Source of the DNA: a virus
DNA: 24,149 nucleotides
Virus record (IMG/VR): IMGVR_UViG_3300042503_002058
Span: 1 to 24,149 of that record
Strand: one strand, 5' to 3'
The notes below the pieces were generated by a model. It had not been told where the DNA came from, did not search any database, and worked only from the letters and a program-made list of their open reading frames with translations. The position numbers were made by a program, and so were the translations under genes. Positions 2,358 to 18,966 of this stretch are shown piece after piece. Numbering within the stretch: the first letter of the stretch is position 1; each line of letters starts with the position of its first letter.

Positions 2358-3057
2358 AAGACACAAAAGTTGTAAATGTTGATGCTGGTATTGTACTAAT
2401 AGGTTCGTCTATTTTATAAACTTTTATACTGTTAAAATATAAATCATTGTTTGGTGCTCCTTCAGTACCTGAAATATAAAATTTAAAACCTCTAATATTA
2501 CTATAACCGTTACGTGTTATATCATTTTCAGTATATGTGGTTGTTCCTAATGTAACAGAATAACTATAAGAATTAAAATTAGTTTTTTTCAAAACAATCT
2601 TTGCAACCATTGTTGGGGAATAATCTTGACCTGTGCTTACTCCATTTATAATATAATTTCCCAATCCCCCTCCACCAACATTAAAATTAAAAACTTCTTG
2701 GGACCAGCCAGCATCATTATAAGCACTAAATCCTTTGTTACCATTTCTAAAATTTACAGAAATAGCTGCGGATAATGCATATCCTACCGATAAATTTGCA
2801 GGAAGGTTTCTTCTTACATCAATAAAATTACTTCCTGCTCCATTACCATATAATCCAAAAGAAGAACCGTTTGTATCTATTAAGCCACCAAATGAAGGTC
2901 CAATAAACGCACCCGCATTACCTGTTGATGTAAAATCCCAAGCATCAAAACCATATCCAAAATTAGATGCACCAGCGAAAGAACCTCCGTAATTAATGGC
3001 GCGATCTTCACCTATTAAAGAGTTTGATCCTGCTAAAGATCCCGAAAATACTCTCAT
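2350..3057 (-). CDS. Glycine-rich LamG-like surface or fibre-tip protein
   Basis: This encodes 235 residues from the ATG at 3057 ([12 protein letters not shown]). The ATG overlaps the stop of the collagen-like gene upstream as TAATG, which fixes the start and suggests translational coupling. The sequence is rich in Gly, Asn, Ser and aromatics. The pattern GFDAWDFTSTGNAGAFIGPS ... SSFGLYGNGAGSNF ... VNFRNGNKGFSAYNDAGW resembles concanavalin/LamG-type beta-sandwich domains of secreted bacterial proteins, remembered rather than searched. Coupling to a collagen-like fibre gene makes a receptor-binding tip or fibre-associated adhesin the natural guess. It ends 8 nt inside the protease gene. Confidence 0.75.
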   Translation of the reverse strand: MRVFSGSLAGSNSLIGEDRAINYGGSFAGASNFGYGFDAWDFTSTGNAGAFIGPSFGGLIDTNGSSFGLYGNGAGSNFIDVRRNLPANLSVGYALSAAISVNFRNGNKGFSAYNDAGWSQEVFNFNVGGGGLGNYIINGVSTGQDYSPTMVAKIVLKKTNFNSYSYSVTLGTTTYTENDITRNGYSNIRGFKFYISGTEGAPNNDLYFNSIKVYKIDEPISTIPASTFTTFVSYE

Positions 3058-4160
3058 TATGATATATCTCCAAAAAGACTCCAATCATTGGCAGATAATT
3101 TAACCACAGTTGCAACAGAATTTTGTGCTCTTATGCTGCGTTTATTTTCTGCACTTCTTAATGTTACTCCGTTTGCAGCAGATAATGTAACTGTTCCTAT
3201 ATTTAAACGAAGTATGCTAATTTGTGTTCCGTTACTAAAATTAACAGAATTATCATTTGGAACAGTTAATGTAATTGCACTAGGAGAATTAGCAGTGATA
3301 AATTCACTACTATCAGTTAATTGAAATGATCTAGTTGAAGTGACTGTATCCAGTGTCAGCGTTGCTGGTGCAAATGTTAATCCTGAATATGGAATAAATT
3401 TCCAACCAACTACAATATTTGTATAAATTAAAGAAAAGTTTCCTGATACATCACAAATTAAATCTTCTGCAACGCCGTCAATATTACTCCCATTTCTTTC
3501 AATTGTTAAATTATTAGAACCATATTTTTCAAAAGTAATATTAATAAATGCACCAGTTAAAGGATTTAATGGGAGTGTTGCTGTAATTGGTGTTGTATAT
3601 GTATTAAAAATAAAACCTTCATTAGAACTTAAAAGCGTATTATTTGTTTCTATTGATACATAATCAAACGATGATCCAGTTTGTCCTGTTGTGCCAGTTG
3701 CTCCTGTATTTCCTGCTCCAGTTGCTCCTGTATTTCCTTGCGATCCTGTTGGTCCTACTATACCAGTGTTTCCTTGAATACCAGTTGGGCCAGTATTTCC
3801 TTGTGTTCCTGTTGGTCCAACATCACCAGTATTGCCTTGAACTCCTGTTGGACCAGTATTTCCTTGTGTTCCTGTTGGTCCAACTATTCCTGTGTTTCCT
3901 TGAATACCAGTTGGACCTGTTGATCCTGTATTTCCTGAGCCAGTTGGTCCTGTTAAACCTGTGTTACCTTGAGTACCTGTTGGTCCTATTAAACCAGTAT
4001 TTCCTTGTGCTCCAGTTGGTCCGACTAAACCAGTATTACCTTGTACTCCTGTTGGTCCTGTTAAACCAGTATTACCTTGTACTCCTGTTGGACCAACTGA
4101 ACCAGTAGGTCCAGTAAAACCTATGTTTTGTATTGGATATAAATTTGAAAGTGTAATCAT
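3057..4160 (-). CDS. Collagen-like tail fibre protein
   Basis: The 367-residue product has a 13-residue head, then Gly-X-Y repeats over about residues 14-162 dominated by a 12-residue unit (GPTG-x-QGNTG-x-x). A globular module follows at about 165-262 ([14 protein letters not shown] to [11 protein letters not shown]), then a second beta-rich domain to the end ([16 protein letters not shown] ... [10 protein letters not shown]). The 165-262 module is closely similar to residues 349-446 of the neighbouring fibre protein at 4170-6041, showing duplication or exchange within the cluster. The start is the ATG at 4160, 9 nt after the upstream stop, with a CATAAATA box 6 nt before it. A trimeric fibre is the likely structure. 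Confidence 0.85.
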
Positions 4161-4166
4161 ATTTTT

Positions 4167-4174
4167 TATTTATG
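4167..4174 (-). promoter_or_regulatory. Late-promoter-like box CATAAATA
   Basis: The minus-strand CATAAATA ends 6 nt before the ATG at 4160 and overlaps the stop codon of the upstream fibre gene. It matches the T4 late box in seven of eight positions. A TSS about 6 nt downstream would leave essentially no leader. In AT-rich DNA a single match could be chance. Confidence 0.3.
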
Positions 4175-6044: not shown

Positions 6045-6935
6045 TTATTGAATATTTATCAAAATAGATTCATCAAATGTCATTAAAATTGTTCCATCTA
6101 TAGCAATAATTGCATTTTCCAAGATATTTTCATCTGGTATCTGTCCTGTAATAGGATCAACATATTGACCTTCTGGTAATTGGGTTCCATAATATGTTTC
6201 CCAAGGACCAAAAACATCTTCAAAGCTTTGAATAAGTGACTTGGCTGGATCATCAACCAATAACATTCCATCGTTATATACAGATTGTATTGTATAAATT
6301 TTATTGATTGTTTCATCCATTTTCTTAAACAACCACCCTTTAATAGTAAAAGAAGTATCGGCAGTAATTCTAAAAGATTGTGTTGGTTGTAAATCTACTG
6401 GATAATTTAAATTTATGTTTCCACCCCATAAAATTTCAGATCTAATCTCATAAGGTATAGAAGATTCTGAAATTGCAGGAAGTTTCCAAGAAATAATAAT
6501 GTATGGATCACAATAAGGTATAAAATTAGTAACAATTTGATCCATGTCCGATTGATATTTTGTTACAATCGTCATGTTTACATTGATATTAATTGGAACT
6601 GGTTGAAGAACTGTTTTTATATAAGATCCGCTACCATCTTTAGGGTTATATGCTACACTAAACCCTTGGTTTTTATTAAAAACACGATTATTATCTCTAG
6701 AAATTCCAGAAATATTAACAGCTATTACTGGAACAGTAATACCGCCTGGTGCTGGTGTGGTTAAAAAATTAAATACTCTTTGTTTTGGAGCATAGACATA
6801 ACGAACTTTATGTCCTTCTAACGGAGCTACAACATTTTTATCTTTATCATAGCGTTTAATAATAACATCATTAAATGCCGAGACAAATTGCTCTAAAAGG
6901 GTTTGAATTTCCCAAGCAAATGTATAATTTTTCAT
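6045..6935 (-). CDS. gp15: Tail sheath stabiliser and completion protein, gp15-like
   Basis: The 296-residue product matches T4 gp15 in its diagnostic blocks: an N-terminal stretch with FVSAFNDVIIKRY, then RVFNKNQGFSVAYNP, MTIVTKYQSDMDQIVTNFIPY (T4 has IFTRYEDDMFQIVEQILPYF) and SFTIKGWLFKK before the C-terminal tail. In T4, gp15 forms a hexameric ring that caps the tail tube and sheath and joins the tail to the head. I start at the ATG at 6935; a TTG two codons upstream (6941) is less likely. The length is close to T4 gp15. It opens the structural block, with the fibre gene 3 nt downstream. The identification marks this as a contractile-tailed phage. Confidence 0.85.
   Translation of the reverse strand: MKNYTFAWEIQTLLEQFVSAFNDVIIKRYDKDKNVVAPLEGHKVRYVYAPKQRVFNFLTTPAPGGITVPVIAVNISGISRDNNRVFNKNQGFSVAYNPKDGSGSYIKTVLQPVPININVNMTIVTKYQSDMDQIVTNFIPYCDPYIIISWKLPAISESSIPYEIRSEILWGGNINLNYPVDLQPTQSFRITADTSFTIKGWLFKKMDETINKIYTIQSVYNDGMLLVDDPAKSLIQSFEDVFGPWETYYGTQLPEGQYVDPITGQIPDENILENAIIAIDGTILMTFDESILINIQ
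6053..6060 (-). promoter_or_regulatory. Late-promoter-like box GATAAATA
   Basis: The minus-strand GATAAATA lies 11 nt before the ATG at 6041, in the last codons of the gp15 gene. The ten bases GATAAATATT are identical to those before the fibre start at 768, which supports a shared signal. Confidence 0.35.
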
Positions 6936-8732: not shown

Positions 8733-9412
8733 TTAATATATTTTTTTTTAAAAATTTCCGAGCTTTTTTTCCAAGACTCACTATTCATACTATCTCCTAA
8801 ACCATAGTGAGTAACTTTAATCGGATAAACTCCCATTTTCAATTTATTTTGATTTGCTCTAATACAAAAACTCATATCATAATGATGAAAATCAAAACTT
8901 TCATCAAATTTTGTATTTGTTTCTAACAATCTTTTTACATTTACAGCAATAAAAAGACCATCAATTATAAGTGCTCTGGAATTTGAAGGACCAAAAACGG
9001 TTGTCCACGAATTTTTATCTTTTGAATGTGCAACTTCTCCTACCATATCTTCTCTGTTGCACATAAGATGCCAAGCCATTATAGGACTAGAAAGGTTACA
9101 CTTTTTCGAACCTGCTAATCCAACAATATCGTATTTTTCAAATGCTATTGTTAGTTTTTCTTCCCAAAACAAGTCATCTATTATTACATCATCATGCACA
9201 AAAATAATTTTTTCATCTTTATGTTTTTCGTTAATAAACTGATTATAAACTTTTGGCAATCCTTCTTTATTTTCAAAAATAACAGTGTATTTGATATTTT
9301 TTAATGTGGTCATTTTATCTATAAATAAAGCCATTTGACTTTTTTCTCTAAAATCGTCACCACATTTAGGTGTTGCAATAACAAAATGGTAATTATTTGA
9401 AGATTCAGACAT
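8729..9412 (-). CDS. GT-A glycosyltransferase (family-2-like)
   Basis: This encodes 227 residues from the ATG at 9412 (MSESSNNYHFVIATPK). A longer frame to 9466 adds a hydrophobic stretch but would overlap the divergent gene, so I prefer the internal ATG. The fold markers are a nucleotide-sugar entry strand (YHFVIATPKCGDDF), an HDD metal-binding motif at 73-75 in IIFVHDDVIIDD, then DIVGLAGSKKC, GEVAHSKDKN, a DGLFIAV block (151-157) and FHHYDMSFCIRA. This resembles bacterial glycosyltransferases of the PF13712 type. The acceptor could be phage DNA, phage proteins or host surface sugars. It heads the minus-strand operon through the gp62-like and GroES-like genes. Confidence 0.75.
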   Translation of the reverse strand: MSESSNNYHFVIATPKCGDDFREKSQMALFIDKMTTLKNIKYTVIFENKEGLPKVYNQFINEKHKDEKIIFVHDDVIIDDLFWEEKLTIAFEKYDIVGLAGSKKCNLSSPIMAWHLMCNREDMVGEVAHSKDKNSWTTVFGPSNSRALIIDGLFIAVNVKRLLETNTKFDESFDFHHYDMSFCIRANQNKLKMGVYPIKVTHYGLGDSMNSESWKKSSEIFKKKYIK

Positions 9413-9433
9413 AGATAAGAGTAAATATATCAT
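9406..9433 (+). promoter_or_regulatory. Possible sigma70-like promoter, CAGACA-N16-TATCAT
   Basis: CAGACA (9406-9411) and TATCAT (9428-9433) are 16 nt apart, and TATCAT ends 8 nt before the ATG at 9442. The layout equals that of the primase promoter (16-nt spacer, 8 nt to ATG), which is the main argument, since the -35 match is only four of six. The AT-rich divergent gap may also serve the minus-strand gene. Confidence 0.3.
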
Positions 9434-9441
9434 ATATACAC

Positions 9442-10023
9442 ATGAAAGCAAAGAAAAAAAGTCCAAAAACTACTATTGCAAAAGATTGTTGCTGCCAAAA
9501 AAAAGAAAAAAATCGTATTTTGCAAAATAATATGAGTAAAAAAACTATTGATTTGTCCAGCTACGATCCATTTGCTGCTCGTTTTATTGTTGCTTTGCTT
9601 AAAGAACAAGAAGATATTGTTGCTTCCGAAGAACAACCAAAATCTCCAGAAGAGTTTACTCCAGAAAAGAATCAAGAAGACTTTCAAAACTCTTTAGAAT
9701 CAGAAACTAACCCTGAACAATTCGATGTAGAGGGTACTCCAACTGAAATGACAACTGATACAATCAATTCTATTAGAAGTTGGTCGAGTAAATTGGATGA
9801 TTTTGCTTCATTTTTAAATGATCCTTCGTCTGAATCTTTGCATAAAATTTTAGCTGATGGTGATAGAGCAGGTAGTTTGCTTCGTGGTGTTACTAGAAAA
9901 GCTTCTGATAGCATTACTCGTATTGCTGGTGAAGTAGAAAAGTTAAAAGAAATTCTTAATACCTACATTATCACTGCTCCTAAAAAACTTCGTGATACTG
10001 AACAGCTTAAAGCTGGTGGTTAA
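9442..10023 (+). CDS. Hypothetical T4-type phage protein, plus-strand singleton
   Basis: The product is 193 residues. Residues 1-30 are very basic (MKAKKKSPKTTIAK) with a CCC run. After a second ATG (9532, MSKKTIDLSSYDPFAARF) comes an acidic Glu/Gln/Pro-rich linker (about 60-100), then a helical domain, WSSKLDDFASFLNDPSSESL ... LRGVTRKASDSITRIAGEVEKLKEILNTYI. I recall similar domains in unassigned virion-type proteins of environmental T4-type phages but cannot name a role. I give the longer start because promoter-like boxes sit 8 nt before it; the 9532 ATG (163 residues) is a real alternative. It stands alone on the plus strand and converges on primase, sharing the TTAA stop region. Confidence 0.75.
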   Translation: MKAKKKSPKTTIAKDCCCQKKEKNRILQNNMSKKTIDLSSYDPFAARFIVALLKEQEDIVASEEQPKSPEEFTPEKNQEDFQNSLESETNPEQFDVEGTPTEMTTDTINSIRSWSSKLDDFASFLNDPSSESLHKILADGDRAGSLLRGVTRKASDSITRIAGEVEKLKEILNTYIITAPKKLRDTEQLKAGG

Positions 10024-10976
10024 AAAGTATTTTTGACAAAAATATCATAAGATATTTCGTCTAACTCTTCTAAGATTGCCATTTCGTTTATATCTTTATA
10101 AGGCATTCTGTCTGGCCAATTAAAAACTTTCTCTTTTCTTCTTAAAAGTTGTTCTGTTTTTTCTTTTGCTGCACTATCAAATGCTGGATTATCCAAAACC
10201 CATATTTTTTCATGAAACGGAAATTCGCTTAATTGTGTTTTTTGTAAATCAGATAAAGTAAGTCCTGCTGTACCAACCGAATTTTTAACAAACATAGCAT
10301 CTATTGGACCTTCAAATATAAAAATGTAATTTAAATCATTATCGATTTTATCTATTCCAAATAACGTTTTATCTGCTCCTTCTTTCCCCAAGTATCTAGG
10401 TTCTGTATTATCTAAACTTCTAGTTTGATAGAACGGTATTTTTTTATTACGATCATAGAATGGTATACATAATCTATTTTTGTGATAAAAATCAGTTAAA
10501 GAAATGTATAAAGATGATGGTTTATTAATTGCTGATTCTATCCTTCTATCTTTTACATAAGACAAAGCTTTTTTGAAAAAACTATTGGAACCAAAATACT
10601 TTTGTTGGATCTCATCAAAAATATTGATTGAATCGTGTGGTAAAGTTAAAATGTTTTTAGTATATTTCTTCTTAATTTCAATTTTTTTTGTTACATCTAT
10701 TGAACTTGTTTTTGATTGTATCTCACTAAAAATTTCATCTTTACTTAAACCGCTTGTAATCTGAATCCAAGAATATGCAGACCATGTTTTAGAGCAATTA
10801 AAACAATGAAAAGTATTTGTTTTTGGATAAAAAAACAATCTTTTCTTCTTTCCCAAGCTTTTACCCTCTCGACAAACTGGACAGCCAGCATTATAAGTCC
10901 CATCATGCTTTCTAAAGGTAGGATCTATTGAGTAAGAATAAAACTTACTCAGCACGTATGTTTCTGGAATAACCAT
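10020..10976 (-). CDS. gp61: DNA primase with zinc finger and TOPRIM, gp61-type
   Basis: The 318-residue product starts with a zinc-binding domain: CPVC at 32-35 and CFNC at 58-61 within KTNTFHCFNCSKTWSAYSWI, the DnaG/CHC2-type pattern. The catalytic TOPRIM region follows, with IFIFEGPIDAMFVKN (EGxxDA glutamate motif) and KIWVLDNPAFDSA (acidic pair). In T4, gp61 makes the short RNA primers for lagging-strand synthesis together with helicase gp41. The length fits phage primases. The gene has its own strong-looking promoter and ends within a TTAA shared with the opposing gene. T4-type primase is the best reading; a Toprim primase of another lineage is the alternative. Confidence 0.85.
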   Translation of the reverse strand: MVIPETYVLSKFYSYSIDPTFRKHDGTYNAGCPVCREGKSLGKKKRLFFYPKTNTFHCFNCSKTWSAYSWIQITSGLSKDEIFSEIQSKTSSIDVTKKIEIKKKYTKNILTLPHDSINIFDEIQQKYFGSNSFFKKALSYVKDRRIESAINKPSSLYISLTDFYHKNRLCIPFYDRNKKIPFYQTRSLDNTEPRYLGKEGADKTLFGIDKIDNDLNYIFIFEGPIDAMFVKNSVGTAGLTLSDLQKTQLSEFPFHEKIWVLDNPAFDSAAKEKTEQLLRRKEKVFNWPDRMPYKDINEMAILEELDEISYDIFVKNTF

Positions 10977-10984
10977 CTTTTATG

Positions 10985-11012
10985 ATTATACACGAATAAC
11001 ACAGCCTGACAA
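10985..11012 (-). promoter_or_regulatory. Sigma70-like promoter of primase, TTGTCA-N16-TATAAT
   Basis: On the minus strand TTGTCA (11012-11007) and a perfect TATAAT (10990-10985) are separated by 16 nt in the 43-nt gap upstream of primase. Only 8 nt separate TATAAT from the ATG, so the mRNA would have almost no leader and no room for a Shine-Dalgarno site. Early or middle expression by host RNA polymerase is expected. Confidence 0.55.
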
Positions 11013-11019
11013 GTTTTAA

Positions 11020-11670
11020 TTATGGTTGAATTGTTGCTGGAACTATGTCGGAAATCAAACTTTGGTCTTCTCCATAACATTTTCCTGATTCTGTTATATA
11101 CAATTCAGTCATTTTAATACGTTCCTCTGGACTTCCGAATATTTCAATTATCGCTGGACAATCGTTAGATGGGAAAACTCTTCCATCACCACGATGATAA
11201 GACTCTTGAAATGCTTTAAATATTGTATCAACCTCTTCTCGATAAATTGGATCTGTTTCTCTGGTTCCATTATCTTCAATTTTGATAGGAGATATTTTTG
11301 TTAAAGGGATAAAAAACAAAACATCATATAGTTTTAAAGTTTCTCTAATTAAAATCCTTTGTTGGTCCAAACATTTTTCTGATAATTTGTCATTTAAATG
11401 AAGCCAAGTTGAATATGCCAAAACATCCAACACACAACGATCAAAAATTACAAAATCTTCTTTAGAATATTTTACAATTTCATCAACCAAACAATTCAAA
11501 ATTGCAGTTTGGCTTTCTTCGTTTCCGTCTTTGCTATGGGGCAAATTTTTTTCTTTTAATAACTTTCTATATTCACTATCAACCAAATTATACATTGGCC
11601 ATTTTTTTAAAAAATCTTGTATATAAGTTGTTTTACCTGTGTTTGCGGTTCCAATAACTGCTATTTTCAT
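11020..11670 (-). CDS. P-loop ATPase/kinase, NadR-like AAA family
   Basis: The 216-residue product begins with a Walker A loop, GTANTGKTT (7-15), at the very N-terminus. FVIFDRCVLDVLAYS (73-87) resembles the DRxxxD segment of nucleoside or ribosylnicotinamide kinases. Later come TKISPIKIEDNGTRETDPIYREEV, a likely Arg-containing lid, and a helical end. The layout fits the NadR-like AAA_28 or deoxynucleoside-kinase-type phage proteins, so phosphorylation of a nucleoside or NAD precursor is plausible. The substrate cannot be set from sequence. It overlaps the upstream gene as ATGA and ends 43 nt before primase, so it belongs to the nucleic-acid metabolism group. Confidence 0.7.
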   Translation of the reverse strand: MKIAVIGTANTGKTTYIQDFLKKWPMYNLVDSEYRKLLKEKNLPHSKDGNEESQTAILNCLVDEIVKYSKEDFVIFDRCVLDVLAYSTWLHLNDKLSEKCLDQQRILIRETLKLYDVLFFIPLTKISPIKIEDNGTRETDPIYREEVDTIFKAFQESYHRGDGRVFPSNDCPAIIEIFGSPEERIKMTELYITESGKCYGEDQSLISDIVPATIQP

Positions 11671-11954
11671 ACTAATTCTATTTTTTCCTTTCTGATTTCT
11701 GGGAACATTTTTATAATTTCTTCTGTTTGTTCGTCATTATAATCTACATCTTTACTTTCGTATAAGTAAACATTTTCTAATAAAACATCTGGATAATTTG
11801 TTCTAATTTTTTTAGCAACATCTAACATTTTTGTGTTGTCTTCTTTATACCAATTAGCAACAATATCAACGGATGAACTAAAAAGCAAAGTTTCTAAAAT
11901 CGTTGATAAATCTTCTTTTGATAAAGAATTTAAATTATAAGTTATATTATTCAT
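11667..11954 (-). CDS. Hypothetical protein, 95 residues
   Basis: A small acidic protein (MNNITYNLNSLSKEDLSTILETLLFSSSVDIVANWYK...). It appears mainly helical, with no cysteines or membrane segment. I do not recognise it. It ends with an ATGA overlap into the P-loop kinase-like gene, so the two are likely coupled. A promoter-like pair (TTGATT-N16-TAAAAT) lies 7 nt upstream, and the 44-nt gap before it ends the operon that starts at the lysis genes. Confidence 0.75.
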   Translation of the reverse strand: MNNITYNLNSLSKEDLSTILETLLFSSSVDIVANWYKEDNTKMLDVAKKIRTNYPDVLLENVYLYESKDVDYNDEQTEEIIKMFPEIRKEKIELV

Positions 11955-11961
11955 AATAACT

Positions 11962-11989
11962 ATTTTACTAGTTATTAATAATAAATCAA
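11962..11989 (-). promoter_or_regulatory. Possible sigma70-like promoter, TTGATT-N16-TAAAAT
   Basis: On the minus strand TTGATT (11989-11984) and TAAAAT (11967-11962) are 16 nt apart, and TAAAAT ends 7 nt before the ATG at 11954. Spacer and distance to the start match the primase promoter. The -35 box is weak (four of six). Confidence 0.4.
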
Positions 11990-12362: not shown

Positions 12363-12614
12363 TTATTTACACTTGTTTTTTTGAAAATCGAGAAGTTCTT
12401 TTAATGCATCTTGAAAAGATAATGGAACAACTTCATCTTTAGGTGCTTGTTGTACTTCTTCTTTTGGCATAATGCTACGCATTTTATTGAAAACATCATT
12501 TTCCAGTTGTCTAATTGTTGGATCTTTTTCAATCTGTGGAAAATCTCCACCAACTTGTAACATGCTAACTGGACTTTTTTTAATTTTTGTAGAATATACT
12601 TGTGATAAATCCAT
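12363..12614 (-). CDS. Small hypothetical protein downstream of endolysin
   Basis: This encodes 83 residues from the ATG at 12614 (MDLSQVYSTKIKKSP). The frame stays open to 12716 inside the endolysin gene, but the internal ATG comes 4 nt after the endolysin stop and fits the packing seen elsewhere. The product is polar, with DPTIRQLENDVFNKMRSIMP and a helical C-terminus (SFQDALKELLDFQKNK). No family is recognised. It is co-transcribed with the endolysin by position. Confidence 0.7.
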   Translation of the reverse strand: MDLSQVYSTKIKKSPVSMLQVGGDFPQIEKDPTIRQLENDVFNKMRSIMPKEEVQQAPKDEVVPLSFQDALKELLDFQKNKCK

Positions 12615-14647: not shown

Positions 14648-14655
14648 TATTTATA
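14648..14655 (-). promoter_or_regulatory. Late promoter box TATAAATA, perfect T4 match
   Basis: The minus-strand TATAAATA ends 8 nt before the lipoprotein ATG at 14639, at the head of the lysis cassette and after a 148-nt gap. It is the only octamer here identical to the T4 late consensus. Late expression of lysis genes is expected. Confidence 0.5.
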
Positions 14656-15826: not shown

Positions 15827-16252
15827 CTATATAATTACCTTATTTTTAAAATTGTTTGGTGCTTTTCCAATTCTGACATTAATAATACCATTATAATAAT
15901 TAGATCTTAATAATACTTCTTTATCAATTTGTTCTTTGATTTCAAAATACGCCAACTCCCATTTAGAATCACAGGTTTTGATTATTTTAAATTCAAAATT
16001 GTCTTTTCCGTATTTTTCAATGTCTTCATTTAATTCTTTCGAAGAACTGGTATAAGATTTCCAATCAGATTCGATACTTGAAATTCTTTTTCTTTTAAAA
16101 CCTTTTAAAGGTTTTCTTTTAAGTCGCATAAAACATTGCTTTTTCCCAATATATTTTTTATTGGTAGCTTTGTTTGTAATCTCATAAATAAATCCAAACG
16201 TAGATTCGTCTATAGATACATTTTCATTTAAAATCCAATGTCCAGTATCCAT
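15827..16252 (-). CDS. GIY-YIG-like endonuclease, Seg-related T4-type protein
   Basis: The 141-residue product has GFIYEITNKATNKKYIGKKQ at 20-39, the two-strand GIY-YIG signature in the form FIY-YIG. KPLKGFKRKRISSIESDWKSYTSSSKEL (48-74) follows, then YGKDNFEFKIIKTC (81-94), ELAYFEIKEQ (99-108; candidate catalytic Glu) and YYNGIINVRIG. The protein matches a compact Seg-type nuclease common in environmental T4 relatives, not found inside an intron here. It could be a free-standing homing-type nuclease or a phage repair nuclease. Its ATG shares bases with the upstream stop (TAATG). Confidence 0.8.
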   Translation of the reverse strand: MDTGHWILNENVSIDESTFGFIYEITNKATNKKYIGKKQCFMRLKRKPLKGFKRKRISSIESDWKSYTSSSKELNEDIEKYGKDNFEFKIIKTCDSKWELAYFEIKEQIDKEVLLRSNYYNGIINVRIGKAPNNFKNKVII

Positions 16253-16509
16253 TATAAATCTTTTTTAGGTAAATTTCTGCGAATTATAGGAAACTTTGAT
16301 TTGGGTGTTTTTTTCTTTTTTGCTCTTTTATTGGGCTGTGCAACAGCCATTGAAGTTTTGATATCAGAGCTATAACCACCAGCAGGATTAATTGAAGTTG
16401 GGTTTGTTATTTCTGCTCCTGCTTGTGGAGAACCAAAAACGCCACCAGCACCAGCAGCATTTACATTTTCCATTACAGTATCAATTAAAGTTTGAAATTT
16501 TTTAAACAT
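16252..16509 (-). CDS. Small conserved T4-type phage protein, unknown
   Basis: The 85-residue product starts MFKKFQTLIDTVMENVNAAGAGGVFGSP. A Gly/Ala/Pro-rich middle follows (to about 60), then a highly basic tail (NKRAKKKKTPKSKFPIIRRNLPKK). I recall small proteins with this AAGAGGVFG block in many environmental T4-type phages, function unknown. The basic tail could bind nucleic acid or a virion protein. It is divergent from uvsY across a 23-nt gap, and its KFQT peptide is also present in UvsY, encoded by the two arms of an inverted repeat. Confidence 0.7.
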   Translation of the reverse strand: MFKKFQTLIDTVMENVNAAGAGGVFGSPQAGAEITNPTSINPAGGYSSDIKTSMAVAQPNKRAKKKKTPKSKFPIIRRNLPKKDL

Positions 16510-16519
16510 AAGTTATAAT
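16492..16519 (+). promoter_or_regulatory. Sigma70-like promoter of uvsY, TTGAAA-N16-TATAAT
   Basis: TTGAAA (16492-16497) and a perfect TATAAT (16514-16519) are 16 nt apart and 13 nt before the uvsY ATG. The boxes lie partly in the start of the divergent gene and overlap the inverted repeat. It would drive the uvsY-uvsW-55-47 operon. Confidence 0.45.
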
Positions 16520-16527
16520 ATTTTATA

Positions 16528-16535
16528 TACTTATG
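16528..16535 (-). promoter_or_regulatory. Late-promoter-like box CATAAGTA
   Basis: The minus-strand CATAAGTA lies 18 nt before the ATG at 16509, the same distance as TATAAGTA before the holin-like gene. It has two mismatches to the T4 late box and overlaps the uvsY start, so it is a weak candidate. Confidence 0.2.
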
Positions 16536-16931: not shown

Positions 16932-18349
16932 TGTTAACGATCACCACAAACAATAAGCAAGGAATAATCACAGGAGATATTTTGGGACTAAGTCTTCTTC
17001 GTGAGAACTTTTCAATTGCAAACCCTGCTTATCGATCAAATAAAAGATTTATAGCTTCCAGATTATACGCAATTACTCCATCTGGAAAATTTGAAATTGG
17101 ATTGTTAAAAAATATTATTAATTTTTTAGATAAAGAACACATTCAATATACAATTGAATCCAATATTAAAAACTTATTTAATGTTGGATTTGAAAATCCA
17201 GTTTTAGAAACTTTAAATATTCCTTATAGAGATTACCAGAAAGAATCTATTTTTAATTGTTTAAGCCAAGGTAGAGGGGTTGTTATTATCCCAACAGCAG
17301 GAGGAAAAACGTTAGTAATGGCAGGATTAATTAAGAGTTTAAGGGAAAATTTAAAAGATCCAACTGCATTGTGTCTTGTATTAGTTCCGTCTTTGCAATT
17401 GGTTGAACAAACATCAGCAGATTTTACTTCTTATGGTTTAGAAAACGTCACAAAATGGTCTGGTGACAATCAACCAGATTTTGATGCATCAATCATAGTA
17501 GCAGGAACTCAAATTTTATTAAGCGAAAAAACAGATTTAAGTATTTTAAATGATGTTAAAATCTTAATTATTGATGAAACGCACGGTTTGCGTAAAGGAA
17601 ATGAAATTAATAAAATTTTTAATTTAATTCAGACAAATTATCGTTTTGGTTTTACTGGAACAATGCCAACATCATTAATTGACCAGTGGAATATTATAGG
17701 AAAAACAGGTCCTATTGTTTTTGAACAAAAAACACAAAATTTAAAACAACAAAATTATGTTTCAAACTTTAAAATTACTATTTTAAAAATTAAACACAAC
17801 GAACTTCCTCGATTTGCAGTTAATAGTTTGACTCCTGCTAGTGCTTACAATCAAGAAATTGATTTTTTAATCAATCATATTAGAAGAAACGAAATAATAT
17901 CCAAATTAGCTTCTAGGTTAGATAAAAATACAATTATCATGGTTGATAGAATAGATCATGGTATTAGTTTAGAAGCAAACTTAAAACAAATCTGCCAAGA
18001 AGTAAAAAAAGATGTTTATTTTATAAGAGGTTCAACAGATATTGAAGAAAGAGAGCAAATTCGAAAACTAATGGAAACCAAAAACAATATAGTAGTTGTA
18101 GCTATTTCAAAAATATTCAGCACAGGCATTAATATTCCAAATTTGCATAATATAATTTTTGCATCTGCTGGAAAAGCTAAAATAAAAATTATGCAATCAA
18201 TAGGAAGAGCATTACGATTACATCCAACAAAAACATTAGCTCACATATTTGATGTTGCAGATAACACAAAGTATGGTAAAATCCATGTCGAAGAAAGAAT
18301 AAAACTTTACAACACAGAAAAATATAATTTTGAAATTAAAAACATATGA
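16931..18349 (+). CDS. uvsW: DNA helicase UvsW (SF2, branch migration)
   Basis: The 472-residue product has all main SF2 motifs: the Q-like RDYQKE (100-105), Walker A PTAGGKT (121-127), DETH (215-218), FTGTMP (241-246), FSTGINIPN (396-404) and QSIGRALR (422-429). The N-terminal 95 residues correspond to the UvsW DNA-binding extension. T4 UvsW is 503 residues with the same layout and unwinds R-loops and branched recombination DNA, shifting the phage from origin-dependent to recombination-dependent replication. I use the ATG at 16931 (TGATG overlap with uvsY); a TTG at 16928 also lies in frame. The stop overlaps gp55 as ATGA. Confidence 0.9.
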   Translation: MLTITTNNKQGIITGDILGLSLLRENFSIANPAYRSNKRFIASRLYAITPSGKFEIGLLKNIINFLDKEHIQYTIESNIKNLFNVGFENPVLETLNIPYRDYQKESIFNCLSQGRGVVIIPTAGGKTLVMAGLIKSLRENLKDPTALCLVLVPSLQLVEQTSADFTSYGLENVTKWSGDNQPDFDASIIVAGTQILLSEKTDLSILNDVKILIIDETHGLRKGNEINKIFNLIQTNYRFGFTGTMPTSLIDQWNIIGKTGPIVFEQKTQNLKQQNYVSNFKITILKIKHNELPRFAVNSLTPASAYNQEIDFLINHIRRNEIISKLASRLDKNTIIMVDRIDHGISLEANLKQICQEVKKDVYFIRGSTDIEEREQIRKLMETKNNIVVVAISKIFSTGINIPNLHNIIFASAGKAKIKIMQSIGRALRLHPTKTLAHIFDVADNTKYGKIHVEERIKLYNTEKYNFEIKNI

Positions 18350-18966
18350 AAACAAAAAAAAACTCCAGAAGATATAAAAAAGCATTTAAAGAAGAAGATG
18401 ACGATGATTTAGATTTAGAAATTATTGAAAATTTAGATCATCCTCTTTTAGATGATTCTTATAATGAAGAAGATTCAGATTCTGATGAATCTGAAGAAGA
18501 AGAAGAAAGTAAAACGGCAGATGTTAAAAAAAATAAAAAAGCAGATAAAGCTAAATTTTATGTAGAGCCTAAAAAATTCGATGAAGAAATTATGCTTTAT
18601 TATGGAAACGGAATTATAAGCAATGAATTAGCCGAAATGATTAGCAAAATTTCTAATAAATTAAGCTACGCTCCAAACTTTATTAATTATAGTTATAGAG
18701 AAGAAATGGTTGGAGATGGAATCATTCGCATGATGAAAGCGTTAATAGCTAAAAAATATAATCATGTAAAAGGAACAAATCCTTTTTCGTATTTTACAAG
18801 AATAGCCTTTAATGCTTTTAGAAATCGAATTAAAAAAGAAAAGAAAATCCACGAAACACATGAGAAATACAGAAGAGAACTGATGAACATGTCAGAAAAT
18901 TACAATAATCTTCTTAAAAATAACAATATCCGCATTATGAAAGAAAGAGACAGACTTTTCGAATGA
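18346..18966 (+). CDS. gp55: Late-transcription sigma factor, gp55-like
   Basis: The 206-residue product aligns with T4 gp55 from about residue 80. ISNELAEMISKISNKLSYAPNF...YREEMVGDGIIRMMKAL matches T4 AIMLIAEGLSKRFNF...WKQEMIADGIEASIKGL, and NPFSYFTRIAFNAFRNRIKKEKK (145-167) matches [23 protein letters not shown]. In T4, gp55 directs RNA polymerase to late promoters and binds the sliding clamp. Residues 14-58 form an acidic extension (EEDDDD, SDSDESEEEEE) not present in T4. The C-terminus is about 40 residues shorter, ending RDRLFE, with at best a degenerate form of the T4 clamp-binding SLDFLYE. It overlaps uvsW and gene 47. Confidence 0.85.
   Translation: MKTKKNSRRYKKAFKEEDDDDLDLEIIENLDHPLLDDSYNEEDSDSDESEEEEESKTADVKKNKKADKAKFYVEPKKFDEEIMLYYGNGIISNELAEMISKISNKLSYAPNFINYSYREEMVGDGIIRMMKALIAKKYNHVKGTNPFSYFTRIAFNAFRNRIKKEKKIHETHEKYRRELMNMSENYNNLLKNNNIRIMKERDRLFE

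Follow-up and report, generated by a model that had tools for sequence, protein, structure and literature searches.

Promoters abutting the start codon at operon heads in a clade of T4-like phages predict leaderless or nearly leaderless mRNAs

Here we describe the promoters at the heads of operons in a 24,149-nt stretch of viral DNA (the entire IMG/VR record IMGVR_UViG_3300042503_002058, hereafter the window) and in related phage genomes. The window represents part of the genome of an uncultivated T4-like phage and has a G+C content of 30%. It very probably belongs to a T4-like clade whose operon-head promoters abut the start codon and whose mRNAs are leaderless or nearly so. From hexamer pairs at four gene heads, a first-pass annotation of the window had proposed that promoters of one fixed layout are placed for the mRNA to start at or beside the AUG. 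The predicted placement is strongly supported genome-wide in the relatives. The single layout is not: two promoter classes were found, one sigma70-like at early/middle genes and one of the T4/gp55 type at late genes.

Enrichment of promoter motifs at gene heads

The 11 heads of the window alone showed no significant excess of promoter motifs (TTGA at 1/11 vs 0.5 in shuffled sequence; TAAATA at 1/11 vs 0.1), and the genomes of relatives were therefore brought in. The comparison set consisted of 119 related loci and six large genomes of relatives (129-226 kb), and T4, the cyanophage Syn9, HTVC008M, P-SSM2 (200 of 252 kb), Cr30, Melnitz and Mosig served as T4-like controls. Genes were called with a simple ATG-only caller that takes the first ATG as the start, and the same caller was run on the controls. 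Motifs were scored as exact words, which variants escape. The null was provided by dinucleotide-preserving shuffles, with positions 30 nt more upstream as a further control.

The scan of gene heads against a shuffled background, which the first-pass annotation had called for, revealed a clear enrichment in all six genomes. TTGA was found at -38 to -33 in 12-36 heads per genome compared with 1.8-5.0 in the shuffles (4-8 times commoner), and TAAATA at -19 to -10 in 14-30 heads per genome compared with 1.4-3.3 (7-12 times commoner). As orthologous heads are not independent, the safer figures are those obtained with one head per gene family (n=281), where TTGA occurred at 70 heads vs 11.3±2.6 in the shuffles and TAAATA at 75 vs 7.8±2.5. 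Moreover, the pile-up of motifs was also seen within single genomes, where genes are non-redundant, and same-strand heads carried 61 TTGA across -34 to -36 against an expectation of 1.85 per position. Neither motif was in excess at these positions in T4 and Syn9. One or the other layout was present at 46-57% of the heads in each of the six genomes, whereas the corresponding share in T4 and Syn9 was 1-3%.

Motif discovery by expectation-maximisation, which was given no position information, recovered the same elements from 540 heads. One was nATAAATATt, whose starts cluster most densely at -13 to -16; the other was TTGA, which is usually located 33-36 nt ahead of the ATG and is most frequent at -35/-34. 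Both motifs lie where they are expected if the transcription start is placed on the ATG. When divergent heads were aligned on the ATG, 67% of them had A at -10 and 67% had T at -1; the preference for T at -1 was dropped as weak because tightly spaced genes show it too.

Two promoter classes and their distance to the start codon

The two motifs partitioned by gene timing. Homologues of T4 late genes carried 30 late and 6 early motifs, and homologues of T4 early/middle genes carried 20 early motifs and no late ones. On the basis of this partition, the late class would most simply be a gp55-type promoter and the early class a sigma70-like one. A gp55-like homologue was detected in all ten relatives scanned (G001-G010) and also in the window (18346-18966, plus strand; phrog_234, E 9.8e-26), where it is presumed to recognise the TAAATA promoters.

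The geometry of the early class was examined in 111 early-type heads. Since these were anchored on a -35 element chosen beforehand at -38 to -33, they test for a matching -10 element at the right spacing, the anchor position itself being supported separately by the shuffles. A good -10 element was present in 98 of the 111, with a modal spacer of 16-17 nt and a modal distance to the ATG of 6 nt (45/98). Thus, the class has the TTGACA/TATAAT-like boxes and the 16-18 nt spacer of sigma70-type promoters. Because 6 nt matches the usual 6-nt discriminator, the early start site is predicted to be the A of the ATG, and the implied early leaders ranged from -1 to 4 nt with a mode of 0 (54/133). Near-identical early promoters of the form TTGACACCTCCTCCTAAAGCATATAGA...ATG, with CCTCCT in the spacer, were noticed at G002:876, 1803 and 225022 and at G008:397.

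In T4, the late box comprises 8 bp and begins at -13 (PMC2988020). With that geometry, a gap of 5 nt puts the late start on the ATG, and gaps of 5-8 nt correspond to leaders of 0-3 nt. Most of the implied late leaders measured 0-3 nt, and a further peak lay at 7 nt (23/145). Thus, in the main part of both classes the predicted start falls on the AUG or within about 3 nt of it. The late class resembles the gp55/gp33/gp45-dependent late promoters of T4 in its 8-bp TATAAATA-type box at the -10 position, in the accompanying gp55-like sigma factor and in its link to late genes. However, in T4, Syn9, P-SSM2 and Melnitz the TAAATA core mostly precedes the ATG by 20-29 nt, and in T4 a Shine-Dalgarno sequence lies between the two, whereas in the relatives it mostly lies at 5-9 nt (16-33 genes per genome) without one.

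Shine-Dalgarno cores were found at 2-10% of the relatives' heads, which is near background (2-13% in control regions), and at 6-13% of their tightly spaced genes. In contrast, they were present at 71% of the heads in T4, 40% in Syn9 and 61% in HTVC008M. Both motif classes were concentrated at operon heads and not at tightly spaced genes. The first-pass annotation had assigned overlap coupling to genes inside operons, and 4-nt overlaps were indeed found at 114 of 584 close same-strand junctions, which is compatible with coupling.

Promoters in the window

All four hexamer pairs described by the first-pass annotation are present in the window with the spacing given there, and those at the primase gene and at the gene starting at 11954 proved to be genuine promoter-like sites conserved in orthologues. 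The T4 gp61-like DNA primase gene (10020-10976, minus strand, start codon at 10974-10976; phrog_47, E 8.9e-36) is preceded by TATAAT (10985-10990), 8 nt from the ATG, and, across a 16-nt spacer, by TTGTCA (11007-11012). A TTGA/TTGT-type element near -35 is kept in nearly all of the 24 primase orthologue heads, although the surrounding sequence has diverged. The gene starting at 11954 on the minus strand, a small early gene of unassigned function, has TAAAAT (11962-11967) 7 nt from its ATG and TTGATT (11984-11989) behind a 16-nt spacer; most of its 33 orthologous heads keep TTGA/TTGC near -35, again in otherwise diverged sequence.

The pair at the gene starting at 9442 (CAGACA-N16-TATCAT, 8 nt to the ATG) had been misread as a sigma70 promoter and was rejected, as the orthologues mostly conserve TAAATA instead. 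This late core lies at 9422-9427 on the plus strand, 14 nt from the ATG, with a predicted leader of about 9 nt, and the site belongs to the late class. The CAGACA hexamer shares bases with what is probably the start codon of the divergently oriented neighbour (ATG 9412, minus strand). At uvsY (plus strand), TTGAAA (16492-16497) and TATAAT (16514-16519) are separated by 16 nt and kept in orthologues with a variable gap to the ATG. The -10 box, however, is 13 nt from the ATG at 16533, which predicts a short leader of about 7 nt, and neither this gene nor that at 9442 is predicted to be leaderless. The TTGAAA is located within the start of the divergent gene 16509: in this region (16252-16533) uvsY and 16509 are only 23 nt apart, and the promoter elements of each extend into the start of the other.

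In addition, T4-type late motifs absent from the first-pass annotation were found near five minus-strand start codons. TAAATA lies 5 nt from ATG 12358 (12364-12369; predicted leader 0), and TATAAATA lies 8 nt from ATG 14639 (14648-14655; predicted leader about 3 nt). TAAATA also lies 8 nt from ATG 768 (777-782), 6 nt from ATG 4160 (4167-4172) and 11 nt from ATG 6041 of a structural-type gene (6053-6058). The genes at 1-768 and 3057-4160 (minus strand) encode collagen-like GxTG repeats and probably specify fibre-type proteins.

Affiliation of the window

Besides primase, UvsY and the gp55-like sigma factor, the window encodes a UvsW-type helicase, a gp47/SbcD-like subunit and a tail sheath stabiliser. 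The best protein identities to cultured phages among the matches listed were about 28-34%, none of them close, and an Rfam search of the window gave no match. In a UvsW tree, which is a single-gene tree with T4 on a long branch, a fully supported split set the window, together with its relatives and two contigs from the gut, apart from T4, cyanophages, pelagiphages and Cr30. A UvsW profile scan of bacterial and archaeal genomes returned only two distant relatives, in metagenome-assembled genomes (MAGs) of different phyla (Paludibacteraceae and Lachnospiraceae). Among the tRNAs and tmRNAs detected, none was matched to a host.

Discussion

The motifs, their positions, the absence of Shine-Dalgarno cores, the partition by gene class and the conservation are all directly observed. 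From them we infer the actual 5' ends, the sigma factor usage and the ribosome mechanism. Early/middle genes would be transcribed by host RNA polymerase from a sigma70-like cTTGA[C/T][A/T]-N16/17-TATAAT promoter, most often 6 nt from the ATG, and late genes by the polymerase with the phage gp55-like sigma factor from T4-type nATAAATA, in most cases with 5-8 nt between it and the ATG. In most transcripts, the first gene would then be translated from an mRNA with a 0-3 nt leader (about 7 nt in a second late group) by recognition of the 5'-terminal AUG, and the following genes by overlap or short-gap coupling.

Several observations weigh against this explanation. About half of the heads carry neither motif by the criteria used, and for the secondary late group (leaders of about 7 nt) and uvsY a short leader is predicted instead of none. 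The Fisher test of promoter class by gene timing gives P 2.9e-10, which overstates the certainty as orthologues recur. Furthermore, PF09116, the sliding-clamp domain of the T4 type, was detected in T4 and HTVC008M but in none of ten relatives, where it may be too diverged. The T4 version of the clamp activates late transcription. Since PF09116 was undetected though gp55 is present, late activation may differ from that of T4.

The alternative that survives best, although an unlikely one, is that these phages have ordinary short AT-rich leaders without a Shine-Dalgarno sequence, as in Bacteroidota, with transcription starting some nucleotides upstream and ribosomes ignoring Shine-Dalgarno sequences. 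The scarcity of Shine-Dalgarno cores at heads and at tightly spaced genes would fit this, as would the late group with a leader of about 7 nt and the distant relative in the Paludibacteraceae MAG; one report (PMC9976891) describes Shine-Dalgarno sequences as unrecognised by Bacteroidia ribosomes. However, the modal spacing has no room for a leader, and the binning evidence is contradictory, as the other gut relative was assigned to a Lachnospiraceae MAG. Moreover, Bacteroidota promoters are of the TTTG/TAnnTTTG type, whereas those of the relatives are TTGA/TATAAT, and motif discovery returned TTGA and ATAAATAT rather than TTTG at -33 and TAnnTTTG at -7, the early element of one gut relative being AACAGAAC.

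It is very improbable that the motifs beside the ATG are translation signals and not promoters. Although they occupy the usual place of ribosome signals, those of the early class are paired with a -35 box at a distance of 16-17 nt, those of the late class correspond to the T4 gp55 box and track late genes, and both are concentrated at operon heads over tightly spaced genes. We give equally little credence to the possibility that the start codons are wrong, the true starts lying downstream and the true mRNAs being leadered. Starts were indeed called as the first ATG, and such annotation errors occur in Deinococcus-Thermus (PMC12340547), but in alignments of orthologues the N-termini mostly coincide with the called ATG, TAAATA stays at 20-29 nt upstream for the most part when T4, Syn9 and other controls are run through the same caller, and the enrichment extends beyond frame-linked distances. 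Finally, chance occurrence of promoter-like hexamers before any ATG in AT-rich DNA, against which the first-pass annotation had cautioned, holds for the window alone with its 11 heads but has a negligible probability for the clade, where it is refuted by the failure of shuffles, positions 30 nt upstream, per-family counts and AT-rich T4-like controls to reproduce the signal.

Leaderless phage mRNAs are already known: in the Thermus myophage phiYS40 most middle and late mRNAs are leaderless (PMC3594737). The phages described here are like phiYS40 in their leaderless mRNAs, here predicted from motif positions. They differ from it, with its Thermus host, in having promoters of both the early/middle and the late class directly beside the ATG, those of the late class being of the gp55 type. 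In Deinococcus-Thermus, experiments have shown that leaderless mRNA arises from a -10 element placed a few bp ahead of the open reading frame (PMC12340547); there, unlike here, the genes are cellular, the motif is TANNNT and a -35 element is not required. A literature search, with most subscription journals outside its coverage, found no report of leaderless T4-like phages. In pelagimyophages, middle/late promoter prediction is reported to have been unsuccessful (PMC7029224). In the cultured Pelagibacter phage HTVC008M, TAAATA is located exactly 5 nt before the ATG in 12 genes (e.g., 6280, 7562, 18392 and 49760), for which leaderless late mRNAs are predicted and can be tested. The layout is not genome-wide in this phage, which has Shine-Dalgarno cores at 61% of its heads.

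In the gut-MAG T4-like contigs of 376 and 239 kb, TAAATA occurs at a distance of 5-9 nt from an ATG at 44 and 52 sites, respectively, and Shine-Dalgarno cores are not in excess. About 32 heads of the 239-kb contig carry an early element AACAGAAC at -25, followed by a TATAAT adjoining the ATG. Sites similar to AACAGAAC also occur in the 376-kb contig. We propose, tentatively and with the balance slightly against it, that a deep uncultivated T4-like branch including these 239-376 kb contigs has largely abandoned Shine-Dalgarno leaders, its early, middle and late operons being leaderless and several promoter types standing at the same distance from the AUG. If true, this implies selection for leaderless translation during infection, perhaps aided by a phage-modified ribosome, given the bS21-like proteins encoded by some of the relatives. 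As the IF3 C-terminal domain was not found in the relatives, leaderless translation is not explained by an IF3 of the phage's own.

In textbooks, T4 stands for phage mRNA that has leaders and is translated from Shine-Dalgarno sequences. Relatives of T4 with both recognised promoter types beside the AUG would show that the start signals of transcription and translation can fuse genome-wide, and polymerase geometry would then set translation starts. The layout also offers a practical rule for recognising true starts, operon heads and early and late classes in uncultivated T4-like phages.

A bS21-like protein (PF01165, above the curated cut-off) is encoded by four of nine relatives scanned (G001, G003, G004 and G006), and a phage bS21 gave no more than weak matches to ribosomal structures. 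The tmRNA genes are located at G001:65196-65653 (minus strand) and G010:7028-7454 (plus strand), the latter with a predicted tag frame of 33 aa, which is unusually long. Proteins of about 330 aa with VDIIVGLAWGDEGK, encoded at G007:17381 (plus strand) and G008:166490 (minus strand), resemble adenylosuccinate synthetase when compared by eye and are possibly PurZ-like.

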